Source: Wenzhouxiangella marina
GTDB taxonomy: Bacteria; Pseudomonadota; Gammaproteobacteria; Xanthomonadales; Wenzhouxiangellaceae
DNA length: 64,000 nucleotides
NCBI RefSeq assembly: GCF_001187785.1
Contig: NZ_CP012154.1
Location: forward strand, 862,501 to 926,500
Direction of reading: 5' to 3'
How positions within the stretch are numbered: the first letter of the stretch is position 1; the number at the start of each line of letters is the position of its first letter. Under the pieces are notes generated by a model, which worked only from the letters and a program-made list of their open reading frames with translations, was not told where the DNA came from and searched no databases. Below, one piece after another: positions 46,677 through 52,349 of this stretch. The position numbers and the translations under genes were made by a program.

Positions 46677-47102
46677 TCAGGCTCGACCAGGGTCTTGCAG
46701 CGGCTCCTGCGGCGGAAGCAGGAAACGACACAGGGGCCCGCTCGCCTTCGCCAGTCGCCGGTCCAGCGTGGCCAACTCGCAGTCAAGCGCTTCGGCCAGG
46801 GCCACGTAATTGGCATCGTAAGCGGTCAGATTGTGGCGCAGAGCCCAGACCCGGTCTGCCAGGGGTTCGTAGTCGAACAGGGTCATGGGGAGCGCGCAGA
46901 GCGTATGGTGGGCCAGGGAGGCTGCCGTCGCGTCCAGGTCGCCGGCCAGCTCCGCCCGGCGCAGAATGTTGGCGGTTTCCACCGGGAGAATCTGCGGGCC
47001 GCAGAGGCTGGCGCTGCTCAATAGTTGCTCGGCCCATTGTCCTGCGGGGCCGCTGTCGACCAGGGCGGCGACCAGCACGCTGGCGTCGAGAACGCGCTTC
47101 AA
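46677..47102 (-). CDS. vapC: VapC-type PIN-domain ribonuclease toxin
   Basis: 141 residues. The acidic PIN triad is visible: Asp6 in VLDASVLVAALVDS, Glu in PVETANILRR, Asp in TAYDANYVALAEAL, with a further Asp in LATLDRRLAKA. These bind Mg2+/Mn2+ for RNA cleavage. Overlaps the antitoxin gene by four bases, the usual vapBC layout. Confidence 0.93.
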   Translation of the reverse strand: MKRVLDASVLVAALVDSGPAGQWAEQLLSSASLCGPQILPVETANILRRAELAGDLDATAASLAHHTLCALPMTLFDYEPLADRVWALRHNLTAYDANYVALAEALDCELATLDRRLAKASGPLCRFLLPPQEPLQDPGRA

Positions 47103-47335
47103 CGTCGATCCTGGTCGCGTAACTCGATGATGCGCTCTGCGTCCAGCTGAATCGGGTTGGCTCGCTTGCGCTCATGAATCTGCCGCAGCAGGTCGCTCCG
47201 GTCGGGGCGATCGGCCAGTTCGATCAGCCGCGCTCTGAGATAGCTCTGCAGGGACTGGCCGGCGCTGGCCGCGCGGGCCGCCAGCCGATCGCGGGCTTGC
47301 TCGGGGACGTCTCGAATGGTGATGTTCTTGCTCAT
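47099..47335 (-). CDS. vapB: VapB/FitA-type ribbon-helix-helix antitoxin
   Basis: 78 residues. N-terminal ribbon-helix-helix MSKNITIRDVPEQARDRLAA...SLQSYLRARL, then a charged toxin-binding tail (RSDLLRQIHERKRANP). It neutralises VapC and should repress the operon through the palindrome that abuts its start codon. Translationally coupled to vapC. Confidence 0.9.
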   Translation of the reverse strand: MSKNITIRDVPEQARDRLAARAASAGQSLQSYLRARLIELADRPDRSDLLRQIHERKRANPIQLDAERIIELRDQDRR

Positions 47336-47404: not shown

Positions 47405-49696
47405 TCAGTTCCCTCTGCCCAGCTGCCACTGCAAGGACATGCCGATCACATGAACGGTTTCGTCGGGGCTGGCTTCGCCGGGCAGGAGGATGTTGGCCAG
47501 CTGGTCGACGGCGACGCCGTCGATGGCCCAGTCGCGGCTGGCGAAGTCCTCGCGCCAGTAGCGCAGACGTCCGATCAGTCGCGGCGTGAAGGTCCAGCTC
47601 GCTTGCAGGGCGAGGGTGCTCAGTCGGGTGCGCAGTTCCGGCAGGGCTTCGGCGCTCAGGGCGGCGCCGACCACGGTGTCGATGGTGCCGCTGGAGCGGG
47701 CTAGGACCCAGTCGGCCTTGAGCTGCAGACGGTCCTGTAGCCAGCGATGTTCGGCGCTGAGGCCGGCGACCCGGGCTCGATCGTCGTGCTCGACCTGCCA
47801 GGCTCGCCCCGGGTCGGCCAGATCGGCTTCGGTGAAGATCGACCCCCGGAAGCTGAAGCCGGACTGCTCGAGGCGCTGACGGTCCCAGCTGGCGAAGGCG
47901 CTGAGTGCGGTGGCCGGGGTGAATTGCCAGCGCAGGTGGCCGTGCAGCTGGTCGACGCGGGCTTCGCGCAGGCCGAACTCACCACCGTGGAAGTCCTGCA
48001 CCCGCCGTGCCGCCTCGAAGCCCAGGGTCCAGGCGCTGGCCGGCTGCAGCTGAAGGGTCGCCGCCAGGCGATGTTCGCGGCGGTCGGCCAGGTGGTACTG
48101 GCGCAGCGTGGGCAGGTTTTCCCAGACCCGGCTCTGCGATTCCAGCCAGGCCGGGTCGTGGCTGGCAATGAAACCGGCACCGCCCTCGTAGGCGGACCCG
48201 CCGCGATCGGACCAGGTCATGCTCAGTGACCCTTCGGCCCGCGGTCCCAGTGTCTGTCGGAGCAGGGCTTCGAGGTCGATCCGCTCGGTTCGCGCGCGCG
48301 CGGTCAGGCTGCGCTCGGTTCGCCTCAGTCGGGCGCCCAGGCGGCTGCGGGTGGTGGAGTTCCAGCGACTGTCGAGTTTCAGACCCAGCGACAGGTCCCG
48401 ATAGTCGTAGGGCAGGTTGAAGCGTGTGGCGCTGGAGACCGGGTCGGGGTCCTGACGCTCGGAATCCCCGCCGATGCCGACCAGGCGCAGGCGTGGCGTG
48501 TGATTGTCGCGGTCGTCGAGACGGCCGCTGGCGCTCCAGCGATGGCGCTCGCCCAGGCGGCCGTTGAGCCGCAGATTGAGCGTGGTGGTATCGACCCGGC
48601 CGTCCAGGCTGGCTCGCGGCAGCGGCTGGGTGATGGACTCGGCCAGTACCGGGTTGGCCGTGTAGGGCAGAAAGGGTTCGTCCTGGCTCATGCGGCCGAC
48701 GCCCAGGTCGGCCAGCAGGTCGACCTGGCCGGGCAGGCGCCAGCGCGTGGCTAGGCGGAGCTGATGGAACTGGTTATCGGGTGGACCGGCGAGCTCGCCG
48801 CGCCCGGTCGGATAGCCCGAGCCTTCGGCCCAGCCGCCGATCGTCGAGAACGGGTTGTCGAAGGCGATGCCCGGCTGGTCGTTGCTGAACAGGGAGGCGT
48901 GGTAGCCGAGCAGCCACTGGCGGCCGGGTCGGCTCCAGCTGGCCTCGGCGTCGACGCTGTGGGTGCGGTAGTCGATCGGCGCCGGCAGGAAGGCGGCGCG
49001 GGGGTTGCCGCCGCTGTTGCCGAACAGTCCGGCCACGGTTCCCAGGCCCTCGCGTCGCTCTTCCCGGACGCCGGCGCTGAGCTGCCAGCCGCGATCGAGC
49101 TGCAGGCGACCGCTCAGGGACCGACGATCGCGGGTCTGATGGGGATCGATCGCCTGCAGGCTGGGCAGCAGCTGGCTGAAGGTGTCGGTGGTGGTGCCGG
49201 CCTGCCAGTCCGGCGGCAGCACCAGGCGGTCCCCGTCGCGGCGATGGATGCTCTGGAGCGGTGCTCGCCGGTCACTGAATCGGCGCTGATCGAACTGCAG
49301 GCGAACGCGGCCGGGCTGGCTCAGGCGGGCCGAGATCAGGCGTTGGCCGCGACCGCTCTCCAGGCTGCCATCGATGATCAGCAGGGCGCTGGTCCAGCCG
49401 TCGTCAGCGCCGGCTGCCGGGCGCCTGAGCCAGTCCAGGCCAAGCAGGCCGAACAGCCCGTCATCGTCCAGGCCCCGGTAGCGCCCGAAGCGCGAATCCT
49501 CGTCGCTGACATGGCCCAGGCCGACTTCGATGATGGCGCTGCCGGTGTCGTCGGCCTGGCCGGCGGGTCGGTCGGCGCCGACGGCCGTTGCCGTGCCGAC
49601 GATCAGGGTGGCGGTCAAGGCCAGCCGGGCAAGCCCTTGGCCCGCTGGGCTTGCGGCGCGTGGGCGGAGGACGATAGGGGTCACGATGCGCATCAT
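47405..49696 (-). CDS. mtrB: MtrB/PioB-family outer-membrane porin for extracellular electron transfer
   Basis: 763 residues from ATG 49696. Signal peptide region LALTATLIVGTATAVGAD. The rest is a large beta-barrel (many RWR/QLSAGVREER-type alternating strands), matching the MtrB/PioB family that sheathes a decaheme cytochrome across the outer membrane. The N-terminal CxxC of Shewanella MtrB is not seen. The decaheme gene stops six bases upstream, and the three genes before it belong to one operon. Ends QWQLGRGN. Confidence 0.9.
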   Translation of the reverse strand: MMRIVTPIVLRPRAASPAGQGLARLALTATLIVGTATAVGADRPAGQADDTGSAIIEVGLGHVSDEDSRFGRYRGLDDDGLFGLLGLDWLRRPAAGADDGWTSALLIIDGSLESGRGQRLISARLSQPGRVRLQFDQRRFSDRRAPLQSIHRRDGDRLVLPPDWQAGTTTDTFSQLLPSLQAIDPHQTRDRRSLSGRLQLDRGWQLSAGVREERREGLGTVAGLFGNSGGNPRAAFLPAPIDYRTHSVDAEASWSRPGRQWLLGYHASLFSNDQPGIAFDNPFSTIGGWAEGSGYPTGRGELAGPPDNQFHQLRLATRWRLPGQVDLLADLGVGRMSQDEPFLPYTANPVLAESITQPLPRASLDGRVDTTTLNLRLNGRLGERHRWSASGRLDDRDNHTPRLRLVGIGGDSERQDPDPVSSATRFNLPYDYRDLSLGLKLDSRWNSTTRSRLGARLRRTERSLTARARTERIDLEALLRQTLGPRAEGSLSMTWSDRGGSAYEGGAGFIASHDPAWLESQSRVWENLPTLRQYHLADRREHRLAATLQLQPASAWTLGFEAARRVQDFHGGEFGLREARVDQLHGHLRWQFTPATALSAFASWDRQRLEQSGFSFRGSIFTEADLADPGRAWQVEHDDRARVAGLSAEHRWLQDRLQLKADWVLARSSGTIDTVVGAALSAEALPELRTRLSTLALQASWTFTPRLIGRLRYWREDFASRDWAIDGVAVDQLANILLPGEASPDETVHVIGMSLQWQLGRGN

Positions 49697-49702
49697 CGCC
49701 AC

Positions 49703-50674
49703 TCAGCGGGTCTGGCCGACGCCGGACGGGTGGTTCGAGCCATGCACCTGGACGTGGCAGTTCATGCAGTCCCGACCCAGTAGCGATTGACTGCCGGACG
49801 GACGCGTTTCCCCCGGCAGGCCGCTGCCGCTGAGCGCCGTCGAGGGATGGAATTGCGCCATGTGGCAGTTCTGGCAGAGAAAGGGCGTGCGCTGGGTCAG
49901 AAGGCCGCGGTGCAGCGCCCCGTGCGGTTCGTGGCACAGGCCGCAGTCTTCCTGCACCGGTTGGTGCTCCCAGAGGAAAGGGCCGCGCTTTTCCGCATGG
50001 CAGTCATAGCAGGTCTCGTTGGCGGTGAAGCGGTGCAGATCCGCCGGTCCGGTGCCGCCGTGCGGGTTGTGACAGTCGCTGCACAGCAGCTGACCCTCGC
50101 GCACGGGGTGGACGAAGGGGCGGTGGATCTCCGCGCGCTGCTCCGTATGACAGCTCAAGCACTGTTCGACCTGCAGGCGCGGGTCCAGGGCGGCATCGCG
50201 AATCGTATGGGCCTGGTGGCAGCTGGCACAGGACAACTCGGATCGATGATGCGGGCTGCCCGACCAGTGGAACAGCGCCGACTCGGCGTGGCAGCTGCTG
50301 CAGACGCGATTCTGCTCATCGGCCGGCGCGGCCGCCGAGCCGCTGAAAACGATGTCCGGATGCGCGCCACCGATCGAGGCCGGCAGGCGCGCGTGTTCGA
50401 GGCTGGCGCCATGGCAGGCGATGCAAGCATCCGAACCGCTGCCGCTCAGGCTGGCGTGCGCGCCGTGCTGAACGTCGAGCAGCGGGTCGTCCGGGCGGCC
50501 ATGGCAGATCAGGCAATTCGCGGTCTCGGCTGACTGCGCGCCGCCGGGTGCAGCGGTTGCCGTGGCGCTGTCCTGGTCCTGACCGGCCAGGTCGGGCAGT
50601 GCGAACAGCAGCAGGCCGACCACGGCCAGCTGGCAGGCGGTCGCGATCCGATGTCCGACCCGGCGCGCCCTCAT
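49703..50674 (-). CDS. mtrA: Decaheme c-type cytochrome, MtrA/PioA family
   Basis: 323 residues from ATG 50674, which overlaps the stop of the b5-like gene (ATGA). Exactly ten CxxCH motifs are present: CLICH, CIACH, CSSCH, CASCH, CLSCH, CSDCH, CYDCH, CGLCH, CQNCH, CMNCH, after a signal-peptide-like start (ATACQLAVVGLLLFALPDL). It carries electrons through the MtrB barrel. A longer frame upstream overlaps the previous genes and is not used. No MtrC-type outer-surface cytochrome follows. Confidence 0.95.
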   Translation of the reverse strand: MRARRVGHRIATACQLAVVGLLLFALPDLAGQDQDSATATAAPGGAQSAETANCLICHGRPDDPLLDVQHGAHASLSGSGSDACIACHGASLEHARLPASIGGAHPDIVFSGSAAAPADEQNRVCSSCHAESALFHWSGSPHHRSELSCASCHQAHTIRDAALDPRLQVEQCLSCHTEQRAEIHRPFVHPVREGQLLCSDCHNPHGGTGPADLHRFTANETCYDCHAEKRGPFLWEHQPVQEDCGLCHEPHGALHRGLLTQRTPFLCQNCHMAQFHPSTALSGSGLPGETRPSGSQSLLGRDCMNCHVQVHGSNHPSGVGQTR

Positions 50675-51039
50675 TCTGCCAGACGCCCGATCCGATAGCG
50701 TTCGGCCAGGGTCCAGGCGGCCTCCGAGTGATCGCGGCCGTAGCCCTTGGTGCGCATGCCTTCGGTGGCTTCCCGGCCGCACCAGGGCGCCAGCACCGTC
50801 GGCGGGGTCGGATGGGCGGGCACGTAGTCGGTGAAGTCGTAGACCACACCCTCGATGGCCATCCAGCAATCGTCCAGGCTCGCGTGCTCGGCCACCTCGG
50901 CGAGGGTGTAGGTCGCTTCGGACGCCGCCGGGTCCGACTCGGCCTCTGTCGACTCGCCGCCGTCCAGTGCGGCCAGTGCCGCGATGGTGCCGGCGCTGGC
51001 CCAGAAGGCGATGAACAGGGCAAAGGTGAGCTTCTTCAT
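50671..51039 (-). CDS. Exported cytochrome b5-like protein
   Basis: 122 residues. An N-terminal signal or anchor (LTFALFIAFWASAGTIAAL) and a b5 domain, YTLAEVAEHASLDDCWMAIEGVVYDFTDYVPAHPTPP, with heme ligands at His of AHPTP and of GRDHSEAAW. The usual HPGG is altered to HPTP. It overlaps both neighbours by four bases and sits between a flavocytochrome and the decaheme MtrA, so a periplasmic relay is its likely job. Confidence 0.88.
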   Translation of the reverse strand: MKKLTFALFIAFWASAGTIAALAALDGGESTEAESDPAASEATYTLAEVAEHASLDDCWMAIEGVVYDFTDYVPAHPTPPTVLAPWCGREATEGMRTKGYGRDHSEAAWTLAERYRIGRLAE

Positions 51040-52349
51040 AGCAGTTCGAACTCCTCGGTGTGGATTCGGGCGCGGTCGATGCCGGCATCGCGCAGATGGG
51101 ATTGGACCAGGTGATTGAGGGGCAGCGGCCCGCAGATCCAGGCCTCGCGTCGGGCCAGATCGGGGACTTGCCGGTTCAGGAACTCGCGGCTGATCGGGCC
51201 TTCGCGATAGAACATGTGGACCACCAGCCGAACGCCCTCGAGGCGCTGGGCCAGGGCTTCGAGTTCGGCCTTGAACAGCATGCGCGTATCGTCCTGCACC
51301 GCGAACACCAGCACGACGTCGACGTCGGCATTCTGACGATCGAGGTGGCGCAAGCGGGCAAGGAAGGGCGTGATGCCGATGCCTCCGGCCACCCAGAGTT
51401 GTGGTTCATGATCCGGTGTCCGCGGGTCGAAGAAACGGCCGTAGGGGCCTTCGATGCTGACTTCGCTGCCGGGTGTGATCGTCTGGATGGCGTGGCTGGC
51501 GTCGCCGAGGTCCTTGATGGCGATGCGCAGCTCGTGCTCCAGCGGCGAGGAGGAGAGCGTGTAGGGGTGTTCCTCGTTGCAGCCGGCGGCCAGGTCCGGA
51601 TCGTGTGGGGTCAGGTAGACGAAATTGCCGGCCTGGTAGCGAAGCCGTCGCTGCAACGGCTTCAGGGTCAGTTCCACCACATTGTTCGAGACCGGCTCGA
51701 CCAGTTCGACGCGGTGACGAAGGCGCGCGCGGCGACGGGAGAACAGAAAGCGCCATAGCAGGCCGGACACCGCCAGCAGCGATAGCCCTCCCCAGATGAC
51801 GAGGTCACTGGAGCCCGGCAGACTGCGGCTGAACAGGGCCGTGTGGACCAGGGCCAGGACGATCGCCGGGCCGGCCAGCGCGTGCACACGCTTCCAGCGC
51901 TCGTAGCGCGGCCGCCCGAAGAAGGCGAAGCTCGGCGCCAGGAAGACCATCATCAGAGCCAGCGCCAGCCATCCGGCCCAGCTCGCCAGATCGCCCAGCG
52001 GCGGGAACAACAGCGCTGCAGCGAATTCGACGCCGAAGGGGCCCCGGGCCAGGGCCAGAAGGATCGGGTGGGCCAGCAGCAGCATCAGGCTGGCCGCGCC
52101 CAGCAGGTGATGCGTATGCCACAGCTTGGTCAGGCCGCCGAAGGGCTGGTCGAAGCCCGGCACCCGCGCGCTCAGCGCACCGGCCAGCAGCAGAAACACC
52201 AGGCCCAGCACGCCGGCGAGTCGTCCGAAGAGGTTGAGCACGGCTGCCGGGCTGGCCAGGTCGGACGTGCCGATGCCGGCGACGAACAACGCCAGGGGCA
52301 GCAACGCCAGTCCCCAGACCCCGGTCCTGGCGGCACGCGCACTGATCAT
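51036..52349 (-). CDS. Ferric-reductase-like flavocytochrome (heme b membrane domain + FAD/NAD reductase)
   Basis: 437 residues from ATG 52349 (GGGAG eight bases upstream). Six membrane segments with paired histidines (LWHTHHLLGAASLMLLLAH, RVHALAGPAIVLALVH) for heme b; then a ferredoxin-reductase module with FAD motif HPYTLSSSP, NAD(P) motif GGIGITPFLARL and a C-terminal CGP. Such proteins move electrons from cytosolic NAD(P)H across the inner membrane. It is the first gene of the operon with b5, MtrA and MtrB. Confidence 0.88.
   Translation of the reverse strand: MISARAARTGVWGLALLPLALFVAGIGTSDLASPAAVLNLFGRLAGVLGLVFLLLAGALSARVPGFDQPFGGLTKLWHTHHLLGAASLMLLLAHPILLALARGPFGVEFAAALLFPPLGDLASWAGWLALALMMVFLAPSFAFFGRPRYERWKRVHALAGPAIVLALVHTALFSRSLPGSSDLVIWGGLSLLAVSGLLWRFLFSRRRARLRHRVELVEPVSNNVVELTLKPLQRRLRYQAGNFVYLTPHDPDLAAGCNEEHPYTLSSSPLEHELRIAIKDLGDASHAIQTITPGSEVSIEGPYGRFFDPRTPDHEPQLWVAGGIGITPFLARLRHLDRQNADVDVVLVFAVQDDTRMLFKAELEALAQRLEGVRLVVHMFYREGPISREFLNRQVPDLARREAWICGPLPLNHLVQSHLRDAGIDRARIHTEEFELL

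Follow-up and report, generated by a model that had tools for sequence, protein, structure and literature searches.

The window analysed here, a 64,000-nucleotide (nt) stretch of the Wenzhouxiangella marina genome (NZ_CP012154.1, positions 862,501 to 926,500), contains a four-gene operon encoding a NOX/ferric-reductase-type flavocytochrome (FNR), a cytochrome b5 (b5), an MtrA/DmsE-family decaheme cytochrome and an MtrB/PioB outer-membrane barrel. We hold, with moderate confidence, that this operon forms a quinone-independent extracellular electron conduit, which would carry electrons outward from cytosolic NAD(P)H through b5 and MtrAB. The inner-membrane partners that the literature covered here names for MtrAB-type conduits (CymA, NetBCD, MtoC and the PCC3/PCC4 proteins) are quinone-linked. 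The four genes, in window coordinates, are the following.

51036..52349, minus strand: FNR, NOX/ferric-reductase-type flavocytochrome, 437 amino acids (aa) (Pfam, 9-sequence alignment, His spacing, PDB match)
50671..51039, minus strand: cytochrome b5, probably periplasm-facing, 122 aa (Pfam, alignment, hydropathy, PDB match)
49703..50674, minus strand: MtrA/DmsE-family decaheme c-type cytochrome, 323 aa, 10 CxxCH (Pfam, NCBIfam, PDB match)
47405..49702, minus strand: MtrB/PioB outer-membrane barrel, 765 aa, zero cysteine (PF11854, TIGR03509, cysteine count)

All four open reading frames (ORFs) were intact and were read on one strand, the minus strand, from 52349 to 47405. The genes for FNR and b5 overlapped by 4 nt (ATGA), as did those for b5 and the decaheme cytochrome (4 nt, ATGA), and the stop codon of the decaheme gene was followed directly by the GTG start of the barrel gene with an overlap of 0 nt. 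The ORFs and the Pfam and NCBIfam matches confirmed the preliminary description of this DNA, which had reported four overlapping or closely spaced genes of these families. The W. marina genome is a single contig of 3.68 Mb.

In FNR, a transmembrane domain was followed by an FAD domain (HPYTL) and an NAD(P) domain (GGIGITP), and the Pfam domains Ferric_reduct, FAD_binding_8 and NAD_binding_1 were matched with E values of 1.0e-9 to 1.4e-9. H80/H94 (HX13H) and H156/H169 (HX12H) are the probable ligands of a diheme-b centre, and both pairs were present in 33/33 core FNR sequences. With four His in two HX12-14H pairs together with FAD and NAD(P) domains, FNR belongs to the NOX/FRE superfamily. By sequence comparison, its closest solved structure was PDB 8qt6 (E 5e-29), which bears a generic label in the PDB and which we take to be SpNOX. 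The marks of a superoxide-producing NOX were missing: the equivalent of NOX2 His-119 was Leu (L98) in 9/9 aligned sequences, and the FAD motif was HPYTL in the same nine, as against the literal NOX motif H[PSA]F[TS]. FNR has VQD at the position where the SpNOX-like sequence has FRG, which weakly hints at a preference for NADH over NADPH. In a tree of 50 FNR-like sequences, the 33 core members grouped as a single clade (100/100) that excluded the 17 other flavocytochromes; the concern raised in the preliminary description, that FNR might fall among unrelated stand-alone reductases, was not borne out.

The b5 protein matched Pfam Cyt-b5 (E 3.7e-18), and its closest PDB match was 1cxy (cytochrome b5; E 2.9e-30), presumably the Ectothiorhodospira b558. 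H76 and H104, invariant across 10 aligned sequences, are the probable heme ligands. The N-terminus consists of MKK and a single hydrophobic stretch (residues 7-25, by hydropathy), and b5 is therefore predicted to be either exported or membrane-anchored facing the periplasm, both its topology and its cleavage being predictions from this segment. Export, as first proposed, thus agrees with the N-terminus, as does an anchored, periplasm-facing form. A same-strand adjacent b5 was found in 31/33 core FNR loci; in the other two (L044 and L051), the contig ended within about 65 bases of FNR. In a class sample of 369 evenly drawn genomes (core FNR at E<1e-100, b5 family at E<=1e-15), the b5 family occurred in exactly the five genomes (5/369) with core FNR and directly adjoined it each time. 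Because of this adjacency, the class-wide co-occurrence and the single FNR clade, the FNR-b5 pair is a stable module.

The decaheme cytochrome matched Pfam Paired_CXXCH_1 (E 1.7e-29) and exceeded the cut-off of the NCBIfam DmsE family TIGR03508 (260.5 bits, cut-off 192.2). Its 10 CxxCH motifs compare with a mean of 0.12 and a maximum of 2 in 2000 shuffles of its own sequence; across the whole genome, a CxxCH pattern count was uninformative, with 101 forward and 72 reverse matches as against 65 and 75 for the reversed-pattern control. The PDB match was 6r2q chain A (E 3.8e-101), which we take to be the MtrCAB structure (the PDB label reads cystathionine beta-synthase). The barrel matched PF11854 (MtrB_PioB) over profile positions 2-634 of 635 (E 6.3e-102; 342.6 bits, cut-off 23) and TIGR03509 (MtrB/PioB) with 291 bits (cut-off 240.05). 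With an MtrB/PioB barrel above the curated cut-offs and an adjoining ten-heme MtrA/DmsE cytochrome, the two genes make up an MtrAB-type conduit. We rejected the possibility that they are merely the MtrAB of the MtrCAB of the genus: in an unrooted decaheme tree, whose long branches make deeper nodes unsafe, 10/12 MtrCAB decahemes fell into one clade (98/95) and the W. marina decaheme lay outside it. Pieces shorter than 220 aa, and those whose E value exceeded 1e-25, were left out of this tree, which dropped the interrupted copy at L031. In that copy (L031 6670-7722; G016, a draft genome), the decaheme frame is broken into pieces with 7 and 3 CxxCH, possibly through an assembly error.

To follow the association of the pair with MtrAB across genomes, we read the flanks around FNR-b5 over 1.4 to 10 kb on each side and assigned linkage states by hand for 28/33 loci, the contig ends being too near in L043, L044, L051, L059 and L139. 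An MtrB/PioB-family barrel was present in 28/33 core-FNR genomes, with the L064 genome judged at the locus only and the G010 barrel being a contig-end fragment (24.5 bits, cut-off 23). The pair lay near a decaheme gene, and is called linked here, in 17/28 scorable genomes, in several layouts. Eleven of the 17 had the W. marina order FNR-b5-decaheme(-barrel); among these, the contigs of L042 and L048 stop within the decaheme gene, the decaheme of L031 is the interrupted one, and the decaheme and barrel of L063 are very divergent. The order decaheme-barrel-FNR-b5 was found in one genome, Marinimicrobium alkaliphilum (L061), the pair was convergent with barrel-decaheme in three and with a complete MtrBAC cluster in one (L022/L055), and in L060 the pair is within 8 kb of an MtrBAC cluster, which begins about 5 kb away. 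At least four changes of linkage state are needed on the FNR tree. The arrangement thus recurs in relatives; its absence from any relative, named in the preliminary description as part of what would refute the proposal, was not seen.

In a genus sample (n=25), 17 genomes had both FNR and MtrB, two FNR only, one MtrB only and five neither (Fisher p 0.002; these co-occurrence tests ignore relatedness). The two FNR-only genomes are 65% and 89% complete, and the contig of the MtrB-only genome ends at b5. In the 12 genomes with a completeness of 90% or more and a contamination of 5% or less, nine had both and three neither, with zero exceptions (p 0.0045). G009 holds b5, decaheme and barrel on a contig that ends at the expected FNR position, and a weaker FNR-like match in G020 (2.9e-22) was left out of the core. 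A restriction of FNR to the W. marina-type operon was ruled out, as the flanks read contained no decaheme in 11/28 scored genomes. Beside the unlinked pair, the same gene, which we take to be arginine-deiminase-like, was seen in eight loci (L040, L045, L046, L049, L056, L057, L125 and L129). A metagenome-assembled genome of Haliea (isolate name Biocath_Gamma_022; L054, L120) holds an FNR-b5 pair and a separate cluster of tetraheme, nine-heme, decaheme, barrel and MtrC-family genes.

We then considered the usual donors and the outer-surface partner. The MtrC family (TIGR03507) had zero matches in the whole W. marina genome, and the same search exceeded the cut-off in 9/35 genomes; the earlier statement that no MtrC is present therefore holds genome-wide by this family. 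No match to the CymA/NapC/NrfH family (PF03264) was found in the whole W. marina genome, with a positive E. coli control, and NrfD was unmatched in 12 genus genomes with MtrAB and no MtrC over the cut-off, W. marina included. That the usual donors are missing was thus supported for CymA/NapC and NrfD; the search did not cover further quinol-linked donors such as the bc-type and CbcL-type ones. PF03264 was unmatched in 10/12 of these MtrC-less genus genomes, and in 5/6 of those at least 90% complete. It was matched in 6/6 MtrCAB genus genomes versus 2/12 MtrC-less ones (p 0.0015). Here, G005 was counted as MtrCAB, its MtrC being a contig-end fragment below the cut-off; G055 stands outside the MtrC-less set, since besides the four-gene order it has a separate MtrCAB and CymA; and the CymA and MtrC tests did not extend to the linked genomes that hold L042 and L064. 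Outside the genus, the linked MtrC-less genomes (n=3) gave no PF03264 match in G343 and G054 and one on another contig in G053, and the family was likewise unmatched in G052, where MtrCAB lies near the pair. As a control, PF03264 exceeded the cut-off in 19/26 other MtrB-bearing class genomes, in 16 of them with E<1e-30. Across these MtrC-less genomes, inside and outside the genus, the frequency was 3/15 versus 19/26 in the control (p 0.0014, or p 0.021 against the 16 strong matches).

From the observed gene set, cofactor motifs, conserved association and absence of CymA/NapC, MtrC and NrfD matches, we infer a topology, a series of transfer steps, a direction and an acceptor for the conduit. 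Cytosolic NAD(P)H, more likely NADH, would reduce the FAD of FNR, and electrons would cross the inner membrane via its two stacked b hemes. The outer heme of FNR would then reduce b5 on the periplasmic face, and b5 would presumably relay the electrons to the MtrA-type decaheme. The decaheme would be plugged into the MtrB/PioB barrel and, because there is no MtrC, its outer hemes would be exposed directly to external acceptors. The first part of this route is implied by the NOX/FRE superfamily as described (NAD(P)H to FAD, inner heme and outer heme; PMC3591440, PMC5676040), and SpNOX is reported to be able to pass electrons directly to cytochrome c (PMC5676040). Outward flow would by itself conserve no energy, NAD(P)H being dissipated without proton pumping, which would make the reduction of metals at the surface, redox overflow or iron acquisition likelier roles than energy-conserving respiration. 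If this is true, extracellular reduction would be uncoupled from respiration, and the gain for the bacterium would shift to iron acquisition, redox balancing or surface chemistry. With its four genes, the operon would also be a compact means of connecting cytosolic NAD(P)H with an electrode, and would supply a protein partner for bacterial NOX-like enzymes, for which periplasmic partners and acceptors besides O2 have been proposed (PMC5676040).

Several observations weigh against such a conduit. Five of the 33 FNR genomes (G001, G002, G176, G417 and G422) had no MtrB match or same-family decaheme, and two of them, G417 and G422, are 99% complete. In seven others (G005, G013, G014, G015, G018, G045 and G048), an MtrCAB-type cluster lies elsewhere in the genome and the pair, to the extent that the contigs reveal it, is unlinked from that cluster (the MtrC of G045 was judged by location and ten CxxCH). 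CymA/NapC-family genes occur in G019 and G022, away from the operon. At the class level, the co-occurrence of FNR and MtrB was marginal (2/5 versus 26/364, p 0.048), and FNR stood beside MtrB in only 2/28 MtrB genomes (E<=1e-30) of the class sample. A single genus supplies most of the data points, which are not independent, and several drafts are 65-89% complete, so that absences there are weak. FNR-b5 is thus of some use where MtrAB is missing, and the majority of MtrAB systems manage without it; occurring without an MtrB match or unlinked as it does, the pair is therefore a plug-in module rather than a fixed part of the conduit.

The same five and seven genomes favour an alternative in which FNR-b5 is a self-contained module from NAD(P)H to periplasmic b5 that delivers electrons to a different periplasmic acceptor (a repair reductase or cytochrome c, or else iron or heme for reduction). 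It would then share no more than its regulation with MtrAB, which another, unrecognised donor would feed. MsrQ-MsrP offers a precedent, in which a periplasmic enzyme receives electrons from a NOX-like protein (PMC5676040). Yet the pair and MtrAB came close to each other recurrently and in several layouts, a barrel was present in most FNR genomes, and CymA/NapC was mostly missing where an MtrC-less conduit was linked to the pair, and we regard this alternative as rather unlikely. Inward flow, in which the conduit would be fed from outside by Fe(II), an electrode or some other donor and FNR would reduce NAD(P)+, has its models in PioAB and MtoAB, which work or are implicated in this direction, and in the reversible MtrCAB of Shewanella (PMC8805035). 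The Haliea genome mentioned above could be read in the same way, but its MtrCAB-type cluster is not near the pair. FRE/NOX enzymes, moreover, are described as moving electrons outward from cytosolic NADPH (PMC3591440). By established energetics, reducing NAD(P)+ with electrons from Fe(II) means working against the membrane potential, and the chain has no evident supply of the energy required; the reverse route from Fe(II) allowed in the preliminary description would be strongly uphill and is energetically implausible, and we consider inward flow very improbable.

It is also highly unlikely that FNR is a true NADPH oxidase making periplasmic superoxide, which b5 and MtrAB would scavenge or relay. 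This idea draws on the closest solved structure, 8qt6, again on our assumption that it is SpNOX. Superoxide production has been reported for SpNOX (PMC5676040). However, L98 lies four residues past the distal heme ligand of the third transmembrane helix, at the position of NOX2 His-119, a residue whose conservation reportedly sets NADPH oxidases apart from metal reductases (PMC3591440). The constant b5 partner, in addition, suggests a protein acceptor.

The quinone-independent conduit that we favour can be set beside several known systems. In the MtrCAB of Shewanella/Vibrio and of Group 3 Wenzhouxiangella, an MtrA-type decaheme likewise adjoins an MtrB-type barrel, and MtrCAB itself occurs in some Wenzhouxiangella genomes; the W. 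marina operon differs in having FNR-b5 and no MtrC or CymA-type gene, and its decaheme lies outside the clade of 10/12 MtrCAB decahemes. PioAB and MtoAB comprise a decaheme and a barrel without an MtrC partner, as the W. marina operon does. Their partners, PioC and the MtoD/CymA-type proteins, are replaced here by the flavocytochrome and b5, and the expected direction is opposite. PioAB and MtoAB are named as MtrAB homologues by Baker et al., who describe MtrCAB in Wenzhouxiangella spp. (Group 3) and pdsA in most Group 3 Gammaproteobacteria (PMC8805035). The main text of that paper, figures and supplements lying outside this scope, makes no mention of cytochrome b, flavin, NADH or ferredoxin. 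The operon resembles DmsEFAB in its decaheme, which scores as DmsE family; no DmsA/DmsB-like gene was found among the flanking genes, to which this search was confined. FNR resembles SpNOX/MsrQ in its FRD with two heme-binding His pairs and, fused to it, FAD/NAD(P) domains, and differs in its constant b5 partner, the outer-membrane conduit in most genomes, the lack of His-119 and HPYTL in place of H[PSA]F[TS]. The PCC3/PCC4 clusters of Fe(II) oxidisers, as described by He et al. 2017, include FRD-like, five-helix inner-membrane proteins modelled as quinone-active (PMC5566968). There, as in the W. marina operon, a porin-cytochrome cluster includes an inner-membrane protein that is FRD-like and has four His; the W. 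marina FNR differs by its fused FAD/NAD domains and the added b5. No description of an FNR-b5-MtrAB cluster was found in the open-licence PMC literature, preprints and supplements being outside that scope.

A second NOX clade was also found beside MtrAB. In G029, a single-contig genome from another family of the order, the genes run decaheme-barrel-NOX with a 4-nt overlap (L116 6108-10461), and CymA/NapC was unmatched. G037 has a related NOX gene that runs divergently from decaheme-barrel, and a NapC-family gene on another contig. The two NOX proteins grouped together (99/98) outside the core FNR clade, and the neighbourhoods read contained no b5 of the FNR-partner family. Three relatives of the same subclade adjoin c cytochromes, of which two are monoheme PF00034 proteins (L161 7923-9812; L164 7650-9433) and one is a small tetraheme (L165 4807-6597). 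As these enzymes stand beside a decaheme or other c cytochromes, the feeding of a periplasmic heme protein may be common in this NOX group. We see an even chance that there is a class of conduits in which NOX-family flavocytochromes wire MtrAB directly to cytosolic NAD(P)H and bypass the quinone pool. Such a class would include FNR-b5 with MtrAB (Wenzhouxiangella, Marinimicrobium, Haliea and others) and the separate b5-less NOX clade (G029, G037), would have arisen at least twice and could replace the CymA route.

Further observations were made in the neighbourhoods read. A 530-aa open frame with 20 CxxCH runs to the end of the stretch at L165 13411-15000, and two tandem 453-aa ORFs at L116 12365-15187 have identical first 60 residues. 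The flanking genes searched around the W. marina operon were a FitA/PIN pair and GNAT, LysE, M23 peptidase and GST genes. The pair, a FitA-like ribbon-helix-helix antitoxin and a PIN-domain toxin, lies directly downstream of the operon (window 46677-47335, minus strand).

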